DNA of 46,902 bases. Origin: Draconibacterium orientale (GTDB lineage: Bacteria; Bacteroidota; Bacteroidia; Bacteroidales; JAADGE01). The stretch covers positions 1-46,902 of the forward strand of contig DYMH01000009.1 in NCBI GenBank assembly GCA_020721645.1, read 5' to 3'. The notes below the pieces were generated by a model that saw only the letters and a program-made list of their open reading frames with translations, was not told where the DNA came from and did not search any database. The position numbers were made by a program, and so were the translations under genes. How positions within the stretch are numbered: position 1 is the first letter of the stretch; every line of letters begins with the position of its first letter. This document shows, one piece after another, positions 2,739-36,256 of this stretch.

Positions 2739-4052
2739 ATGTGTAAAAAAATAATAGTTTTACTTTTTTTGATTACAATATCTTTTTCACTTTTTTCGCA
2801 AGAATTTCGTTCGAAAGAACAAGTCGATGCTTTGACCTACAATTTATATCTGAAAAAAGATTGGAAAAACCTGATTCAAACAGGAAAAGCCGCATTGAAA
2901 CAAAATCACGATTTCTATTATTTGCGTTATCGCTTGGCTATTGCATACTACGAAACGAAAAATTACGAAAGGTCCGCACGACTGTTCGAGAAACTCGTTT
3001 CCGAAACGCCGAAAGATGACGTTTTGAACGAATATTTGTATTATTCCTATTTTTTTGCCGGACGATTTGAAGATGCACGTGTTTTTGCTTTCGATATTTC
3101 TGCTGCTTTGAAAGAAAAATTGAATATCCGACCGCGGAGAAGCATCAATGCCATTGGTTTTGATGCAAAATTAGATTTTAACGAAGATTATGTGATAAAA
3201 GAAAGTTTCGGAGTCGATATTGAGCAATCAGCGGTGAAAAATCAGAATTATTTCGGCTTAAATATGGAGCATTTGATAGGAAACAGAACGACTTTTTTTC
3301 ACGGATATACGCGAATCGGTATCACAAACATTGTACAGTCAGATTTAACAAGTAATTATCCGCCGCAGTTCGATGAAAAAACAAAGCAAAACGAATATTA
3401 TGCAACATTGAATATTCATGCTGCAAAAGGGACAGATATTTCGTTAGGTTTTCATTATTTGAATATAAATTTATCGGCAGAAGATCTGACATTAACAGTC
3501 GGACCGGGTCGAAACAACAATTATTTATACAATACATACAAAAACTCGTTCGTCGGATTTCTTGGTTTCAGCAAACGTTTTTCGGTGTTTAATACCGGAA
3601 TTTCGGCTTCGGTATCGAATTCGAACTCGCAAATTCAGTTTCAACCCGAATTTTCTTTAGTCATTTATCCTCTTGGAAATTATAAATTTTATACTCGAAG
3701 CGTTTTGCGAGAAATAATTCACAGCTCAAAACTTAACTCCGAAAACAATTTCGTGGTGCAACAATCTGTCGGAATTTTAATGATGAAACGAGTTCTGTTT
3801 GAACCATCGATTTCTTATGGAAAAATGTACAATTTTGTGGAATATCGAGGAATCATTGTCAATAACGATACCGACCCGATTCTTTTCCGTGCCGAAGGAA
3901 TGCTCAATTTCTTCTTGGCAAAAGGGAAATTCAATCTTTTCATTAAATATCAATACAACAAAAAAGACAATTTCTACTTTTTAAATGAACAAGTTTTAAC
4001 AAAAAGCTATATTAATCAATCACTAACAGGAGGTATAAAATGGTATTTCTAA
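2739..4052 (+). CDS. TPR-containing outer-membrane beta-barrel protein (YaiO-like architecture)
   Basis: A 437-residue exported protein. The N-terminus is a typical signal peptide ending near SLFSQ. Residues about 25-125 form TPR-like helical repeats (YYLRYRLAIAYYETKNYERSARLFEKL). The remaining 300 residues alternate polar and aromatic residues as in an outer-membrane beta-barrel and finish on an aromatic residue (GGIKWYF), the usual barrel-end signal. The architecture resembles YaiO-family proteins, but I cannot confirm membership. It begins 2 bases after the urea-transporter/M23 gene and overlaps the next gene by 13 bases, so the three are almost surely co-transcribed. It may be the surface partner of the M23 fusion protein; that is inference. 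Confidence 0.7.
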   Translation: MCKKIIVLLFLITISFSLFSQEFRSKEQVDALTYNLYLKKDWKNLIQTGKAALKQNHDFYYLRYRLAIAYYETKNYERSARLFEKLVSETPKDDVLNEYLYYSYFFAGRFEDARVFAFDISAALKEKLNIRPRRSINAIGFDAKLDFNEDYVIKESFGVDIEQSAVKNQNYFGLNMEHLIGNRTTFFHGYTRIGITNIVQSDLTSNYPPQFDEKTKQNEYYATLNIHAAKGTDISLGFHYLNINLSAEDLTLTVGPGRNNNYLYNTYKNSFVGFLGFSKRFSVFNTGISASVSNSNSQIQFQPEFSLVIYPLGNYKFYTRSVLREIIHSSKLNSENNFVVQQSVGILMMKRVLFEPSISYGKMYNFVEYRGIIVNNDTDPILFRAEGMLNFFLAKGKFNLFIKYQYNKKDNFYFLNEQVLTKSYINQSLTGGIKWYF

Positions 4053-9220: not shown

Positions 9221-9730
9221 TTAATAACCTAATTTTTTAACTACATCATCGCTCAGGTCCGATTTCGGGTCGGCATAAATCATGCTTGGTCCGGCTGCCT
9301 TATCGAATATAATCAGATAATTTCCTTCGGTAGCAATGGTTTTTATCGCATTGTAAACTTCGTCCTGAATCGGTTTCACAAGTTCCTGACGTTTTTTGTA
9401 TAAGTCGCCGTCTTTGCCGAAATATTTTTCTTTCAAATCATCGGCTGCTTTTTCCAAGGTGATAATTTCATCTTCGCGTTTGGTTTTCATTTCCGATGAT
9501 AACAAGGTCGATTCGGCTTGATATTCTTTGTATTTTTTTTCAACTTCGGCATACTTAACATCGAGTTCTTTTTGCCATTTGTCCGACACTGCATCTAAAT
9601 TACTCTGTGCACCTTGATACGATGGAACTTTGCTCAGAATGTATTCACTGTCCACGTAGGCATATTTTTGAGCGAAACCGAATCCGATAATAGTCAGCAT
9701 GACTATGGAAAATACGATTAATTTTTTCAT
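9221..9730 (-). CDS. OmpH/Skp-family periplasmic chaperone (first copy)
   Basis: A 169-residue protein with a signal peptide (cleavage near GFAQ), then KYAYVDSEYILSKVPSYQGAQ, the classic OmpH beginning, and a long charged coiled-coil. It ends with IFDKAAGPSMIYADPKSDLSDDVVKKLGY. Similar to but clearly diverged from the copy 25 bases downstream, so the two may have different clients. It lies 50 bases after bamA in the same direction, and its role is to chaperone outer-membrane proteins to the BAM complex. Confidence 0.93.
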   Translation of the reverse strand: MKKLIVFSIVMLTIIGFGFAQKYAYVDSEYILSKVPSYQGAQSNLDAVSDKWQKELDVKYAEVEKKYKEYQAESTLLSSEMKTKREDEIITLEKAADDLKEKYFGKDGDLYKKRQELVKPIQDEVYNAIKTIATEGNYLIIFDKAAGPSMIYADPKSDLSDDVVKKLGY

Positions 9731-9780
9731 GATTTTTTGTTTTAATTAGTGAATAGCATGATGTATATCAATATGTTAGA

Positions 9781-12231
9781 TTAAAATTGTTGTCCTAAAA
9801 CGAAGTGGAATTTGCTTCCCACCGGTTTGTTGGTTCCGGGTAAATTATCGAATCCGTATCCCCAGTCGAATCCAATCAATCCGAGCATGGGTAAAAAGAT
9901 TCTGACACCGGCACCCGAAGAACGGTAAATGTCGAAAGGATTAAATTTATCGGCTGAATGCCAACTGTTTCCTGCTTCCGAAAACACCAAGCCGTAGATT
10001 GTTGCTGTTTCATTCAGAATAACCGGATAACGCAATTCCAAAGTCATTTTTTCGTAGATATTTCCGCCGCCGTCGGGTGTTAATGAGCCGTTTTCATATC
10101 CGCGAAGTCCTATAATATCCGTTCCATAAGAATAATAGCCCATACCGTCGCCGCCGAGGCTGAATCCGCCAAATGGCGAATATCCATAAGCTTTGCTGTA
10201 AAATCCCAAATAACCATATTCACCTCTCACATTAAGAACCAAATCCCCTATCAATTGACTGAACCACGAGGCTTTGAATGACCATTTATGATATTCGAGT
10301 AATTTGAATTTTTCTTCGTTAGTCATTGTGCTATAATTTTTTCCGCTAAACAAAGAATACGGAGCTGTAAGTTCTACCCCCAAAGTAAACGATGAACCGC
10401 GACGAGAATAGAGCGGATTGTCAATCGAATTACGTCCGAAAGTTGTTTTAAATGTTATGTTGTTAAATATTCCGTTAGAAATTCCTTGAAACATCGACCA
10501 TTTATCCAAATTGTATTTTTGGTACCCAATTTCATTGTAAAGTGTAAAATAATCATCGGGCCATTGCAGGCGGCGTCCCATGCCGATTGACGCACCAAGT
10601 ATGGTCATATCTGCTCGTTTGATGCTTGATTTTTTATATCCGTTCGATTGTAAATTGTAATAGGTTGAAACCGAGAGTGAAATTGGCTTTTTCCCGCCCA
10701 GCCATGGTTCTACAAACGAAAGGCTGTACGATTGATATTGTGTACCGTTGGTTTGGGCTCGCAGGCTCAATTGTTGCCCATCGCCGGTAGGCAAAGGTTG
10801 CCACGCATCTTTTTGAAACATATTTTGTATCGAAAAATTGTTGAACACCAGTCCGACTGTCCCCACGAGCATATTGGCACCCCAACCTCCCGAAATTTCG
10901 ACACGGTCGTTTCCTCGCTCAACCAATGCGTATTCGATGTCCACTGTTCCGTTTTCTTGGTCGGGAATCGGTGTCGGTACAATTTTTTCGGGGTCGAAAT
11001 GCCCTAAATTTGCTAATTCACGAACCGAACGGATAATGTTGGATTTGCTGAACAAATCGCCGGGTATCGTTCGTAATTCGCGACGAACTACATTTTCGTT
11101 CGTGCGGTCGTTGCCCGAAACAATGACTCGATTGATTCGTGCTTTTTCGCCTTCGTAAATCCGCAGTTCAATATCAATAGAATCGACGTCGATTCTGATT
11201 TCGGTCGGATTCACATTGAAAAACAAGTAGCCGTTGTCCATATACAAATTCCCGACAGCATCTTCGTCCACAGTCAATCGATTTTGAAGATTTTCTTTAT
11301 TGTAAACATCGCCTTTTTTAACGCCAAGCATTTTGTTGAGCAAATCCGTTTCGTAGATTGTATTGCCTACCCATTTTATGTTTCTGAAAAAATATTGCGG
11401 TCCTTCTTCAATAGTAATGATTACTGCGATTTTCTTTTTATCGTAATCGAAAATCGAGTCTTTCACAATTTTCGCATCGCGAAAACCGGCTTTATTGTAT
11501 TCTGTAATGAGATTTTTTTTGTCCTCTTTATATTTTGAGGCAATATATTTTGATGGCTTAAAAAGTCCGTACCATCTTTTTTCTTTGGTTTCTTTGAGCT
11601 TTTTCCATTTTATTTTTCGGGCGGTAAAATGCGAATTGCCTTCAATTTTAATATATTTTATTCTTGTTTTTTTCGATTTATTGATATTTACATTCAAAAT
11701 TACCGAATTTTGAAGTGTTGTATCCGGTTTTTTTACGATGTCGATTTTCGCTTTCGAAAAACCCTTATCTGCATAATAATTTTGAATAATATTTTTCGTA
11801 TTCGTGATAATATTGTCTGTAATTTGTGTTCCGCGAATCAAATTTACTTTTTCTTTCAAATCATCGACTTCCGATTTTTTTATGCCGATAAAATTGATTT
11901 CTGACATTCGGGGACGTTCTTGAAGATAAATATTGAGCCAAACTTTGTCATTTTCGGTTTTTTCGACCGATATGTTGATGTCCGAAAACATTTTTTGTTT
12001 CCATAAATTTTTTACCGCCATTGTAATTTCATCGCCCGGAATGCTGATTTTTTGTCCGATAGATAAGCCTGTAATTTCGATTAAAGCTGTCTTGTTCAGC
12101 GATTGAATTCCTGAAAGTGAAATATCTGCAATTTCAAAAACTTTGGGTTCTTCGTAGTTAATATTAATTTGGGATTTCACAGAGTGAACGAAAAACAAAG
12201 AAAAAATAATGAGGTATATCTTTTTAGACAT
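9781..12231 (-). CDS. bamA: Outer-membrane protein assembly factor BamA
   Basis: An 816-residue Omp85 protein, the core of the BAM complex that inserts beta-barrels into the outer membrane. It has a signal peptide (SVKSQ), about five POTRA domains over residues 30-430 (for example FEIADISLSGIQSLNKTALIEITGLSIGQKI and KARINRVIVSGNDRTNENVVRREL), then the barrel. The barrel carries the lid-loop motif GLRGYENG and ends in KFHFVLGQQF with the terminal aromatic residue. Its two ompH chaperones follow. A 169-base gap after uppS holds a hairpin (12261-12288) and an imperfect promoter-like TATACTTTC on the minus strand, so it may also be transcribed separately from uppS. Confidence 0.97.
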   Translation of the reverse strand: MSKKIYLIIFSLFFVHSVKSQININYEEPKVFEIADISLSGIQSLNKTALIEITGLSIGQKISIPGDEITMAVKNLWKQKMFSDINISVEKTENDKVWLNIYLQERPRMSEINFIGIKKSEVDDLKEKVNLIRGTQITDNIITNTKNIIQNYYADKGFSKAKIDIVKKPDTTLQNSVILNVNINKSKKTRIKYIKIEGNSHFTARKIKWKKLKETKEKRWYGLFKPSKYIASKYKEDKKNLITEYNKAGFRDAKIVKDSIFDYDKKKIAVIITIEEGPQYFFRNIKWVGNTIYETDLLNKMLGVKKGDVYNKENLQNRLTVDEDAVGNLYMDNGYLFFNVNPTEIRIDVDSIDIELRIYEGEKARINRVIVSGNDRTNENVVRRELRTIPGDLFSKSNIIRSVRELANLGHFDPEKIVPTPIPDQENGTVDIEYALVERGNDRVEISGGWGANMLVGTVGLVFNNFSIQNMFQKDAWQPLPTGDGQQLSLRAQTNGTQYQSYSLSFVEPWLGGKKPISLSVSTYYNLQSNGYKKSSIKRADMTILGASIGMGRRLQWPDDYFTLYNEIGYQKYNLDKWSMFQGISNGIFNNITFKTTFGRNSIDNPLYSRRGSSFTLGVELTAPYSLFSGKNYSTMTNEEKFKLLEYHKWSFKASWFSQLIGDLVLNVRGEYGYLGFYSKAYGYSPFGGFSLGGDGMGYYSYGTDIIGLRGYENGSLTPDGGGNIYEKMTLELRYPVILNETATIYGLVFSEAGNSWHSADKFNPFDIYRSSGAGVRIFLPMLGLIGFDWGYGFDNLPGTNKPVGSKFHFVLGQQF

Positions 12232-20956: not shown

Positions 20957-21676
20957 ATGACAAAACTCAGCGTAAATATCAATAAAATAGCAACACTCCG
21001 TAACGCACGCGGAGGAAACGTTCCCGATGTGTTGAAAGTTGCCGTAGATTGCGAATCGTTTGGTGCACAGGGTATTACTATTCATCCGCGACCCGATGAA
21101 CGGCATATTCGTTATCAAGACGCTTTGGATTTGAAAAAAGTTGTCCGAACCGAGTTGAATATCGAAGGAAATCCCGAAAAAAAATTCATCGATTTGGTGT
21201 TGAAAATCAAACCAGTGCAAGTTACTTTGGTGCCCGATGCTCCCGATGCTTTAACCTCAAATTCGGGTTGGGACACAATTAAGAATGAACAGTTTTTATC
21301 CGAAATTATTGCAGAATTTCATAAAGCAGGTATTCGTACCTCGATTTTTATAGGAACGGAAGCTGCGATGATAGAGCGAGCCGCAAAAATAGGCACCAAT
21401 CGTGTCGAATTATACACCGAACCGTATGCCGCACAATTTTCGGCTAACCCGCAAAAAGCTGTCGAACCTTTTGTGAAAGCTGCACAGGTGGCGTTGGCAA
21501 ACGGTTTGGCTCTGAATGCAGGGCATGATTTGAATTTGGAAAATTTGAATTTTTTTTATAAAAATATTCCGGAATTGGCAGAAGTTTCCATTGGGCACGC
21601 ACTTATTGCCGATGCTTTGTATTACGGGTTGCACAACACAATCCAAATGTATTTGAGGCAATTAAGTAATGGTTAA
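20957..21676 (+). CDS. pdxJ: Pyridoxine 5'-phosphate synthase
   Basis: A 239-residue PdxJ, which condenses 1-deoxyxylulose 5-phosphate with 3-amino-2-oxopropyl phosphate to give pyridoxine 5'-phosphate. Visible motifs are [50 protein letters not shown] and the C-terminal [21 protein letters not shown]. The PdxA partner is at 33102-34199 in this window. The last codons and stop (LSNG-stop) are encoded by the start of a miniature inverted-repeat element (21662-21766), so the native C-terminus may have been altered after MYLRQ. Confidence 0.96.
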
Positions 21677-21766
21677 TTATTAATTATTAATTGTTAATGA
21701 AGTAATAATTTGATTTCGATAAGAATAGGGACATTATAATACAAATAAATCTGTCAGATTACTTAT
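21662..21766 (+). repeat. MITE-like element, copy 1 (overlaps the pdxJ stop)
   Basis: A 105-base AT-rich element beginning TTAAGTAAT and ending ATTACTTAT, so the ends are near-perfect 9-base inverted repeats. It is about 85% identical over its length to the reverse complement of 34247-34346; the main difference is a short TAATTAT-type expansion present only here. It is non-coding, apart from supplying the stop codon of pdxJ. Confidence 0.8.
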
Positions 21767-21851
21767 AATGAAAATGTGGAAATTGCCTGAACTACCGAGT
21801 ATTACGTGATTATTAAAATTAAAATCTAAGCCGTTTAGAGTATAGTAAAAA

Positions 21852-22649
21852 ATGAAACTTTTTTACAGAAAAATAGGAAAAGGTGAGCCGCTGGTTATTG
21901 CACACGGATTGTACGGAATGTCGGACAATTGGATGTCGATAGCAAAAACTTTGTCCGAAAATTTTGAAGTCATCGTTCCCGATTTGCGGAATCACGGGCA
22001 ATCGCCTTGGGCAGATTCGCACACATACAGCGATTTGGCAGGCGATTTACTTGAATTATTGAACGATTTATCAATTGAAAAAGCAAATTTTCTCGGACAT
22101 TCGATGGGCGGAAAAGTTGTGATGAAATTGGCTTTGGAAAATCCGGGAAACATTAAAAAACTTATCGTAGCCGATGTTTCGCCCCGAAATTATATCGATT
22201 TTGAAGAAAAAAGCGGATTTAACCATTCCGATGTCTTAAAATTGCTTCAAAATATTGATTTACGAAATATAAAATTGAGAACAGAAGCCGAAAATGTGTT
22301 ATCATACAAAGTTTCGGACAAGCGAATTCGACAATTTTTGATGAAGAATATTTCACGCGAAAAAAACGGCACATTTGCGTTCAAACTCAATGCTGTTGCT
22401 TTATTCAATAATTTGAATGAAATAGCCGGTGAAATCAATTTGGCAAACGGCAAAATATTTAACGGTGATATTTTGTTTATCAAAGGTGATAAATCGAATT
22501 ATATTCGCGAAAGCGACAGGTCGCAAATATTAGAGTTATTTCCTTCGGCTCGATTTGTTACAGTTAAAAATGCAGGACACTGGCTTCATGCCGAGCAACC
22601 GGAAGTTTTTGCCGGAGTGGTGCGGAATTTTTTACTTTCAAAATATTGA
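21852..22649 (+). CDS. Alpha/beta-fold hydrolase (YbfF-like esterase)
   Basis: A 265-residue alpha/beta hydrolase. Visible are the oxyanion region (VIAHGLYGMSDNW), VPDLRNHGQSPW as in the YbfF esterases, and the nucleophile elbow FLGHSMGGKV with Ser. Near the C-terminus are FIKGDKSNYI and the catalytic His in VKNAGHWLHAEQPE. Cytoplasmic, with no signal peptide. YbfF-type enzymes hydrolyse acyl esters or acyl-CoA in vitro; the substrate here is unknown. It lies 175 bases after pdxJ, separated by the repeat element, and is the last gene before the repeat-rich accessory stretch. Confidence 0.88.
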   Translation: MKLFYRKIGKGEPLVIAHGLYGMSDNWMSIAKTLSENFEVIVPDLRNHGQSPWADSHTYSDLAGDLLELLNDLSIEKANFLGHSMGGKVVMKLALENPGNIKKLIVADVSPRNYIDFEEKSGFNHSDVLKLLQNIDLRNIKLRTEAENVLSYKVSDKRIRQFLMKNISREKNGTFAFKLNAVALFNNLNEIAGEINLANGKIFNGDILFIKGDKSNYIRESDRSQILELFPSARFVTVKNAGHWLHAEQPEVFAGVVRNFLLSKY

Positions 22650-34246: not shown

Positions 34247-34346
34247 TTAAGTAATCGGACATATTTATTTGTATGTTATAATGTCCATATTATTAAGAAA
34301 ATCAAATTATTGCTTCATTAACAATTAATAATTAACCATTACTTAA
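34247..34346 (-). repeat. MITE-like element, copy 2 (inverted relative to copy 1)
   Basis: A 100-base AT-rich element with perfect 9-base terminal inverted repeats (TTAAGTAAT at 34247-34255, ATTACTTAA at 34338-34346). Its reverse complement matches 21662-21766 at about 85% identity. It fills half of the 230-base gap between pdxA and the next gene. Confidence 0.8.
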
Positions 34347-34429: not shown

Positions 34430-35575
34430 GTGTTTTTATCATATTCCTTTATCAAACAACATGAAATTGTTCTTGTTGGATTAGTCGTTTTTACAGTCGC
34501 TTTTTTGATTCAAATGTTCTATTATTTTTTCTTTTATCTTCGGATATTTTCATTAATAAAAAAGACAAAAGAAAAAAGCGAATCCGTGCCGGTTTCGGTT
34601 GTTATTTGTGCCCGAAACGAAGCCGAAAATTTACAAAAATATTTACCTAAAATTTTGGCACAAAATTATTCCGATTTTGAAGTTATCGTTGTGAACGATT
34701 GCTCGGAAGACGATACACTGCCAATCTTGAACGAATTTAAGGAAACTTATAAAAACTTGTACGTTACCACCATTCATCAAGATTCGACATTTTCGCACGG
34801 GAAAAAATTAGCCTTATCAATCGGAATAAAAGCAGCAAAAAACAATTTTTTGCTGCTTACAGATGCCGATTGTGAGCCGGTATCGGAAAATTGGATTCGG
34901 GAAATTGTCGGTAATTACACACAAAACATAGAAATTGTGCTTCTTTATGGCGGTTACAATCAGGAAAAAGGCTTGTTAAATCGCATCATTCGCTACGATA
35001 CACTTTTTTCGGCACTGCAATATTTTACCCTTGCCGCTGCACGTGTTCCGTACATGGGGGTTGGGCGTAATTTGTCGTATAAAAAATCGATGTGGACCGA
35101 AAACAAAGGATTTTCGTCTCACTCACACGTAATTTCGGGCGACGACGATTTATTTATCAATCATAATTTGAAAAAAGGAAATTATACCATCGATATTTCA
35201 CCCGAAAGTTTCACTCGTTCCGCACCCTTAAAAACGTACGAAGCGTTTCACAGACAGAAAAAACGGCATTTGACAGTTGGGAAATATTATAAATTTTCAA
35301 CAAAATTACTCTTGGGAACCGAAATCGGAAGCCGTTTTATTTTTTATGCAAGTCTCATTTTTTTAGCATTCACACCGGAGGCTCTTATTTTAATTTCGAG
35401 TGCGTTTATTCTGCGATTTGCGATACAAAATATTATTTTCAGAAAAGTATCGACACATTTTCGAGAAGAAAAAATTTCTAATTTTATTCTTATCTTTGAT
35501 ATATTAATTCCGATACTTAATTTCAGGGCTTTGATTTCAAATAAATTTTCGCGAAAAAAAATAGTATGGAAATAG
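34430..35575 (+). CDS. Membrane-anchored family 2 glycosyltransferase
   Basis: A 381-residue GT2 with an N-terminal membrane segment (IVLVGLVVFTVAFLIQMFYYFFFY). The cytoplasmic GT-A domain shows VSVVICARNEAENL, VIVVNDCSEDDT, the DxD in LLLTDADCEP, SGDDDLFINH and FHRQKKRHLTVG (like the QxxRW acceptor motif). Two or three C-terminal membrane segments follow. The layout is that of processive or lipid-linked sugar transferases; the product is unknown. The start is GTG at 34430, with no suitable ATG nearby. Its last 10 bases overlap the sigma-factor gene. Confidence 0.85.
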   Translation: MFLSYSFIKQHEIVLVGLVVFTVAFLIQMFYYFFFYLRIFSLIKKTKEKSESVPVSVVICARNEAENLQKYLPKILAQNYSDFEVIVVNDCSEDDTLPILNEFKETYKNLYVTTIHQDSTFSHGKKLALSIGIKAAKNNFLLLTDADCEPVSENWIREIVGNYTQNIEIVLLYGGYNQEKGLLNRIIRYDTLFSALQYFTLAAARVPYMGVGRNLSYKKSMWTENKGFSSHSHVISGDDDLFINHNLKKGNYTIDISPESFTRSAPLKTYEAFHRQKKRHLTVGKYYKFSTKLLLGTEIGSRFIFYASLIFLAFTPEALILISSAFILRFAIQNIIFRKVSTHFREEKISNFILIFDILIPILNFRALISNKFSRKKIVWK

Positions 35576-36189
35576 GTTCCAATTTTTCGGAAAAAGCAAA
35601 ACGTGATTATCGTTTGGTCGAATTGGCTAAAAGCGGCGACCAAAAAGCTTATGCCGAATTGTTGGGATATTATCGTGATTCACTGTATTTTATGCTGTTG
35701 AAAATGGTGAAAAATAAAGATGATGCCGAAGATTTAACCATAGAAGCTTTCGGCAAAGCATTCAACAATATCGAATCATACAGTTCAAACTATGCGTTCA
35801 GCACGTGGCTCTTTAAAATTGCAACAAACAACGGAATCGATTTTCTGCGAAGCCGGAAATCTCAACGGAACATAATTTCGATAGACCGCACCGATTCTGA
35901 TTCCGACGGCAGTTTGGGAAATAAATTCTCGCTCGTAGAAAATGAACCCAATCCGGAAGAAAAAATGATAGCCGGACAAAAAGAAAAACTCCTGCGAACA
36001 ATACTCAAAAAACTACACCCCGATTATCGCAGAATATTAACCCTGAGATATTTCGATGAATTTTCGTATCTCGAAATTGCCGATGAACTCAACATTCCGA
36101 TAGGAACCGTAAAGGCACGGCTTTTTCGATCGCGAGAATTGTTTATTTCGATTTTAAAAAAACATCAAATAGATTCGGGGATTGGTTAA
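35566..36189 (+). CDS. ECF-type RNA polymerase sigma factor
   Basis: A 207-residue sigma-70-family protein. The region-2 helices carry LGYYRDSLYFMLLKMVKNKDDAEDLTIEAFGKAF and FSTWLFKIATNNGIDFLRSRK. A linker is followed by region 4 (LHPDYRRILTLRYFDEFSYLEIADELNIPIGTVKARLFRSRELF), the helix-turn-helix that reads the -35 region. Region 3 is absent, as in ECF sigmas. It overlaps the glycosyltransferase by 10 bases, so the two are co-translated. No anti-sigma gene is adjacent. The stop codon lies inside what may be a decayed third copy of the miniature repeat. Confidence 0.93.
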   Translation: MEIGSNFSEKAKRDYRLVELAKSGDQKAYAELLGYYRDSLYFMLLKMVKNKDDAEDLTIEAFGKAFNNIESYSSNYAFSTWLFKIATNNGIDFLRSRKSQRNIISIDRTDSDSDGSLGNKFSLVENEPNPEEKMIAGQKEKLLRTILKKLHPDYRRILTLRYFDEFSYLEIADELNIPIGTVKARLFRSRELFISILKKHQIDSGIG

Positions 36190-36256
36190 TTATGGAAGTA
36201 ATTAATTGATTTTGATATAAATTCGTATATAATAAATTAATTTCTGCGATTACTTG
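36183..36256 (+). repeat. Possible decayed third copy of the MITE-like element
   Basis: Begins with GGTTAATTAT at the sigma-gene stop, exactly as copy 1 does at the pdxJ stop, has GAAGTAATTAATTGATTTTGAT in the middle (compare GAAGTAATAATTTGATTTCGAT) and ends GCGATTACTTGA. About 75 bases with gaps; AT-rich DNA makes chance similarity possible. Confidence 0.4.

Follow-up and report, generated by a model that had tools for sequence, protein, structure and literature searches.

The pdxJ gene of Draconibacterium orientale examined here (positions 20957-21676, forward strand; 239 amino acids, of which residues 3-234 match PF03740) ends inside a short sequence that recurs elsewhere in the same DNA, which raises the question of what this sequence is and how a gene could come to owe its stop codon to it. 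The gene lies on contig DYMH01000009.1 of assembly GCA_020721645.1, in a stretch of 46,902 nucleotides that is referred to below as the window.

The repeat at the end of pdxJ

An initial annotation, made from the window alone, placed a miniature inverted-repeat element at 21662-21766 and a second copy at 34247-34346. Both are indeed present, with narrower limits. Alignment and profile placed the core of the pdxJ copy at 21665-21763 on the forward strand; its 99 bp comprise AGTAAT...ATTACT ends, a left arm of heptads and a unique right body. The core is flanked by TA at 21663-21664 and at 21764-21765, presumably a target-site duplication, as judged from flank counts and the joined site, so that the outermost bases of the earlier limits, 21662 and 21766, are those of the host. 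The inverted repeats lie at 21665-21670 (AGTAAT) and 21758-21763 (ATTACT), and the heptad array, recognized from the sequence and from the stepwise core lengths of 80 copies, occupies 21673-21700 with four units, TTAATTA-TTAATTA-TTAATTG-TTAATGA. The second copy, including its TAs, spans 34248-34345 on the reverse strand, has a core of 94 bp and lies between pdxA and a glycosyltransferase gene; the similarity of about 85% that had been noted between the two was reproduced as 84% over 107 columns (E = 4.65e-29). A terminal inverted repeat of 9 bases, ascribed to both, is found in the second copy, while in the pdxJ copy it is only 8 bases long (TAAGTAAT/ATTACTTA).

The reading frame and the joined-site test agree that the pdxJ stop codon, TAA at 21674-21676, lies within the element, as had been proposed. 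In its present form PdxJ ends in RQLSNG-stop at 239 amino acids; when the element and one TA were deleted in silico, it ended RQL-TAA at 236 amino acids, the TAA being that at 21766-21768 (forward strand), and when both TAs were deleted, it grew to 249. The insertion point would thus have been the TA of '..CAA TTA TAA'; the old stop would have been pushed beyond the far side of the element, and the new TAA, starting at the twelfth base from the TA, would have added Ser-Asn-Gly, probably the only addition made to PdxJ by the insertion. Considering that the joined flanks stop right after RQL and that SNG is merely appended, the view that the insertion rewrote the PdxJ C-terminus is too strong. 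A comparison was made with 80 PdxJ relatives, kept of 154 at 65-75% identity and belonging to Bacteroidota apart from two records labelled Chlorobi or Chlorobiota. They are 236-241 amino acids long, and the residue aligned with the Leu of RQL is Leu in 79 and Met in one. Behind it follow one residue in 62 relatives, two in 5, three in 7, four in 5 and five in 1. A tail of three residues is therefore inside the natural range, and Ser-Asn-Gly also falls beyond the end of the Pfam domain (residue 234); the element gives PdxJ its stop, and the change in the protein is unlikely to matter. Nonetheless, a zero-residue tail occurred in none of the 80, and the reconstructed protein would end one residue before every one of them, which argues mildly against so simple a reconstruction and against the transposon reading preferred below.

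The family in the genome

The genome (3.83 Mb in 285 contigs) was searched with the 105-mer of the initial annotation, which gave at least 44 matches at E <= 10 when 40 of 180 first-look candidates were scored. Patterns were then counted against their reversed forms: the right end occurred at 68 places versus 1, the non-heptad body, allowing up to 3 mismatches, at 92 versus 1, and the left end at 82 versus 13, and these places merged into 121 clusters. From 106 fetched regions (209,848 bases in total), a family profile built on the first 102 matches retrieved 108 matches in 97 regions, including the second window copy; merging those on one strand and less than 250 bases apart left 105. The dispersed repeat at the pdxJ end is thus real, and the genome-wide search that had been suggested turned up about 100 further copies. 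Conservation of the same bases at distant pdxJ ends with no copies elsewhere, named beforehand as the pattern that would contradict a mobile unit, is not what was found, since there are about 100 copies and none of the 80 PdxJ relatives ends in SNG. Two decayed copies were also detected in the window, one at 36182-36254 (forward strand, E = 1.5e-4), which overlaps the 3' end of the ORF at 35566-36189 and may supply its stop codon too, and one at the contig end, 46819-46899 (reverse strand, E = 4.5e-4).

Counts of ends and context were confined to the 80 of 108 copies in which both ends were readable, allowing up to 3 mismatches per 10 bases; the 28 left out were truncated, split or more divergent at an end. 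The denominators retain L208, which lies at the very start of a contig with no left flank, as well as L165, L175, L176, L188, L214 and L227, whose left ends are doubtful. Read off the alignment, the consensus is TA-AGTAATGG-(TTAATNN)n-AGTAATAATTTGATTTTGATAAGAATACGGACATTATAATATACAAATAAATCTGTCCGATTACT-TA, with a last heptad that is mostly TTAATGA and with end sequences AGTAATGG and CGATTACT; the terminal inverted repeats AGTAAT...ATTACT are short, measuring 6 bp, or 8 bp if the TA is counted. Core lengths range from 74 to 128 bp and cluster in 7-bp steps, with 80, 87, 94, 101 and 108 bp in 5, 10, 25, 18 and 3 of the 80 copies, 122 bp in one, and other lengths in the rest. The left arm is therefore a heptad array of variable number, in which units may have been gained or lost by slippage.

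A left TA is present in 63 of the 80 copies, a right TA in 67 and both in 54; one copy each is flanked by GA/GA and TT/TT. Around the 54 TA/TA copies the left flank is A-rich and the right flank T-rich, as is also the case in 43 copies away from upstream stop codons. A pairing GGCAATT/AATTGCC is possible between the pdxJ flanks; among 79 copies, the flanks were not complementary, scoring lower than shuffles across the first 12 positions (z = -2.4), and insertion into hairpins was rejected, as the joined sites folded no better than shuffled pairings. Stop codons in the left end start at bases 1, 5 and 12 from the TA, one per frame, so that all three frames are stopped within 14 nt. No copy was found inside a gene as judged by open frames, a weak test because the element stops every forward frame. 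When the flanks were joined, the junction was spanned by an open frame of 100 codons or more in 4 of the 80 copies, in three of them with 103-118 codons and in the fourth extending 34 codons upstream of a FabD-like start; less than 100 nt of flank was available in 4 of the 80.

Polarity towards gene borders

The two ends of the element differ in their relation to genes, as defined here by open frames and ATG starts rather than annotation. Co-oriented ORFs of 100 codons or more have their stop within -25 to +30 nt of the left end in 35 of 80 copies and of the right end in 6. Antisense ORFs have their ATG within -6 to +25 nt of the left end in 13 copies and of the right end in 2. Some of these antisense starts are presumably real (FabD-like, QueE-like, GH57-like and a glycosyltransferase N-terminus). 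Overall, a gene border of either kind is near the left end in 47 of 80 and near the right end in 8, with 42 copies left-only, 3 right-only and 5 both (p = 8.7e-10). The left end supplies the stop codon of the gene in 15 of the 80 copies and the right end in none. In 9 of the 15 the gene stop starts with the left TA; once the flanks were rejoined around a single TA, 8 of these 9 regained a TAA in the same position (among them L250, whose right flank is CA). Measured against the joined site, the stop was displaced by 9 nt or less in 14 copies of the 15 and by 54 nt in L220.

Another repeat of the same genome, 101 bp long (TACTAAGC...TCAAAGTA), served as a control. It had at least 41 matches, with 40 of 202 first-look candidates scored, and 13 full-length identical copies among those listed. 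The control set was the best 30 of the 40 scored (L280-L309), all near consensus; L300 is one base off, L283 and L296 share a flank, and L292 is nested in a copy of the first family. TA flanked 27 of the 30 on both sides, and a border was near the left end in 1 and near the right end in 6. Left hugging in 47 of 80 versus 1 of 30 corresponds to a Fisher p of 4e-8, and a smaller contrast holds when the control is set against the first-family quartile nearest the consensus (8 of 20 versus 1 of 30, p = 0.0016). Since the control shows no left preference, polarity seems to be a property of the first family and not of the spacers of this genome in general.

It is to be noted that this second repeat also occurs within first-family copies, as in L167 (C7 near 3381-3481). 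A third repeat, with the ends CAATGTCGTTTAGTTAAG and CTTAACTAAACGACATTG or close variants, was seen several times inside them as well, namely in L180 (C40 near 110-470), L167, L219, L253, L260 and L276; that in L180 has a 10-bp direct repeat, AATTTTAAAT, on either side. L189 (C55 near 9585-9945) is a composite, in which another left end, with a foreign interior, breaks into the copy near position 87 and part of the second repeat lies beyond.

Stops in all three frames within 14 nt would make border insertions nearly silent, and they explain tolerance of the element at gene ends, though not the absence of the right end there. One possible, tentatively held explanation of the polarity is that the transposition system recognizes where coding DNA meets non-coding DNA and inserts with its heptad end facing the gene and its other end facing the spacer, at stop and start codons alike. 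It is equally conceivable that insertions were randomly oriented and that selection removed those with the right end to a gene. The 24 copies near no gene border are unpolarized (left end nearer in 13, right end in 11), as selection predicts, and the older half of the family hugs borders somewhat more than the younger (28 of 40 versus 19 of 40, p = 0.07). By quartile, starting closest to the consensus, left hugging was seen in 8, 11, 16 and 12 of 20 copies and right hugging in 1, 3, 3 and 1; the lower left hugging near the consensus (8 of 20 versus 16 of 20 in the third quartile, p = 0.06 overall) suggests that retention rather than targeting may drive part of the pattern. However, the closest quartile is already at 8 left versus 1 right, the TA-flanked control repeat has little border preference, and the right end would likewise yield a TAA at a stop codon, yet no copy of the 80 is so placed, versus 9 for the left. 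These counts do not separate targeting from selection; in the proposed mechanism the polarity would owe something to the choice of targets at coding/intergenic borders and something to the loss of insertions that are less well tolerated.

A third possibility, that copies are retained as 3'-UTR elements (terminator, mRNA stabilizer or cleavage site) acting through RNA on the upstream gene, is unlikely. It would fit the 35 left ends at co-oriented stops versus 6 right ends, but it does not account for the 13 at antisense ATGs versus 2. The sole clear stem, CGGACA/TGTCCG, showed 72 broken, 16 one-sided but still paired and 1 compensated among its changed cells in the 80 copies, and no conserved stem with compensatory changes was found in them. 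The two window copies folded no better than shuffles (z = -0.70 and -0.88), and an Rfam search of window positions 21500-21950 gave no family at gathering score. The presence of the left end at both 3' and 5' borders, the decay of the stem and the z-scores thus together speak against an RNA function.

Nature of the element and its relation to known repeats

Taken as a whole, the element is very probably a MITE, a non-autonomous DNA transposon roughly 80-120 bp long, which duplicates its TA target, exists in about 100 copies and is nearly silent at pdxJ. It has the short length (within 50-1000 bp), AT-richness and many dispersed copies of such elements, as well as the terminal inverted repeats AGTAAT...ATTACT, and with a longest core of 128 bp among the 80 it has no capacity to encode a transposase. 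The earlier description of a mobile or formerly mobile unit accords with the roughly 100 copies, shared ends, TA flanks and joined reading frame. As such, the family is a new MITE family of a known kind. It would have been spread by a transposase acting in trans, with TA duplicated at the target rather than carried by the element.

Against the MITE reading stand its short terminal repeat (6-8 bp), the fact that no sister genome with an empty site was seen, and the missing transposase: a transposase with matching terminal repeats, which had been suggested as something to look for, was not found in the genome among PF13358, PF01609 and PF13586. PF13358 and PF13586 each had no match there, and none of four PF01609 loci had a flanking pair of element ends, the single right end at one of them (L275) being that of a neighbouring copy. 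A scan of five of seven fetched stretches beside left-only ends revealed no right end with up to 3 mismatches other than that of a known copy. PF13358 matches do occur in four genomes of the same family of bacteria, and the two best loci, L271 and L272, had no flanking pair of element ends, although one strand of L272 carries two left-end-like words with 2 mismatches. With PF13358 absent from the genome and no end pair at L271 and L272, no match to the ends of an IS630 transposon was found, and the family is not filed as IS630. An autonomous relative with matching ends is usual for MITEs and is not required of every described one.

Alternatively, the TA could be part of the element (TAAGTAAT...ATTACTTA), with no target duplication, as in units moved by recombinases. 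Most ends do carry TA, as this would predict, but removal of both TAs leaves the interrupted genes without their stop, as in the 249-residue PdxJ, whereas with one TA retained 8 of 9 stop-codon insertions regain a TAA in the same position, and this alternative is accordingly quite improbable. Finally, a resemblance of AT-rich heptad sequences by chance, to which the heptad-only matches in two related genomes (G018 and G020) might point, has practically nothing left to it and is refuted by the body and right-end counts against reversed patterns.

A wider spread of the MITE family was looked for and rejected. The full query matched 6 of 21 genomes of the bacterial family; real element bodies were present only in the genome itself (G000), G002 and G003, the matches in G018 and G020 being confined to heptads and that in G014 being weak (77%). 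A 67-bp body query against an order-level sample matched 1 of 393 genomes, its own, with 2 candidates scored per genome. The consensus had no match in phages or plasmids, nor one exact 23-mer in viral contigs, and a vehicle of phage or plasmid type was set aside on these results, although the collections may omit records near this genome. A G002 locus (L082) is 99.5% identical to L167 of this genome over 1,057 bases, element copy included, with the two genomes placed in different genera. Considering this identity and the 7% contamination listed for G002, the G002 sequence may be a contaminant; the identity perhaps reflects contamination or recent transfer.

Small repeats of comparable habit are known. 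The modules of BOX elements are longer than 7 bp. In Streptococcus pneumoniae, of 58 CDSs that BOX overlaps, 36 are described as owing their extreme 3' end and stop codon to it, with no strong sign that they were truncated (PMC3049150). As portrayed there, BOX shares with the present family its small size, its dispersal, internal modules that vary in number and the supply of stops, and it differs in sequence and in phylum; one-ended adjacency to both stop and start codons, a feature of the present family, is not among the BOX traits in the text cited (PMC3049150). The pneumococcal RUP, described as 107 bp long, in 108-110 copies, mostly intergenic and TA-targeting, with stop codons in all six frames, is alike in size, copy number and target (PMC2229807, PMC3049150). 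Its ends are described as matching IS630-Spn1 of the same species, whereas no IS630 (PF13358) was found here, and its density is given as peaking 50-150 bp from genes, in contrast to a left end that is often within 25 nt. BrickBuilt of Porphyromonas gingivalis, with 23-nt units and 19 copies reported in one strain, is likewise a Bacteroidota MITE containing a tandem-repeat array, but in that account its terminal repeats resemble those of IS5-family ISPg1/ISPg9, its duplications vary in length and it lies 49-591 nt from genes (PMC4596501). ERIC, as summarized in PMC2229807, is similar as a small MITE-like intergenic repeat with orientation-dependent effects; RNA folding and RNase E cleavage are proposed for it, whereas no conserved stem was found here. 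A Cardinium MITE is described as derived from an IS982-family element (PMC9769881). Among the open-licence papers listed by literature searches, no title dealt with the present family or with one-ended insertion at gene borders.

Supply of stops at gene ends and variable modules are thus already known from BOX, as described in PMC3049150, and the polarity is the unexplained part here. Small elements that supply stops at housekeeping genes offer a simple route to tolerating many insertions, and the copies of this family mark orthologous sites for strain comparison. Were the border polarity due to targeting, the rule of insertion would be an unusual one and could point the way to gene-safe integration; were it due to selection, the polarity would record the insertions that a bacterium tolerates.
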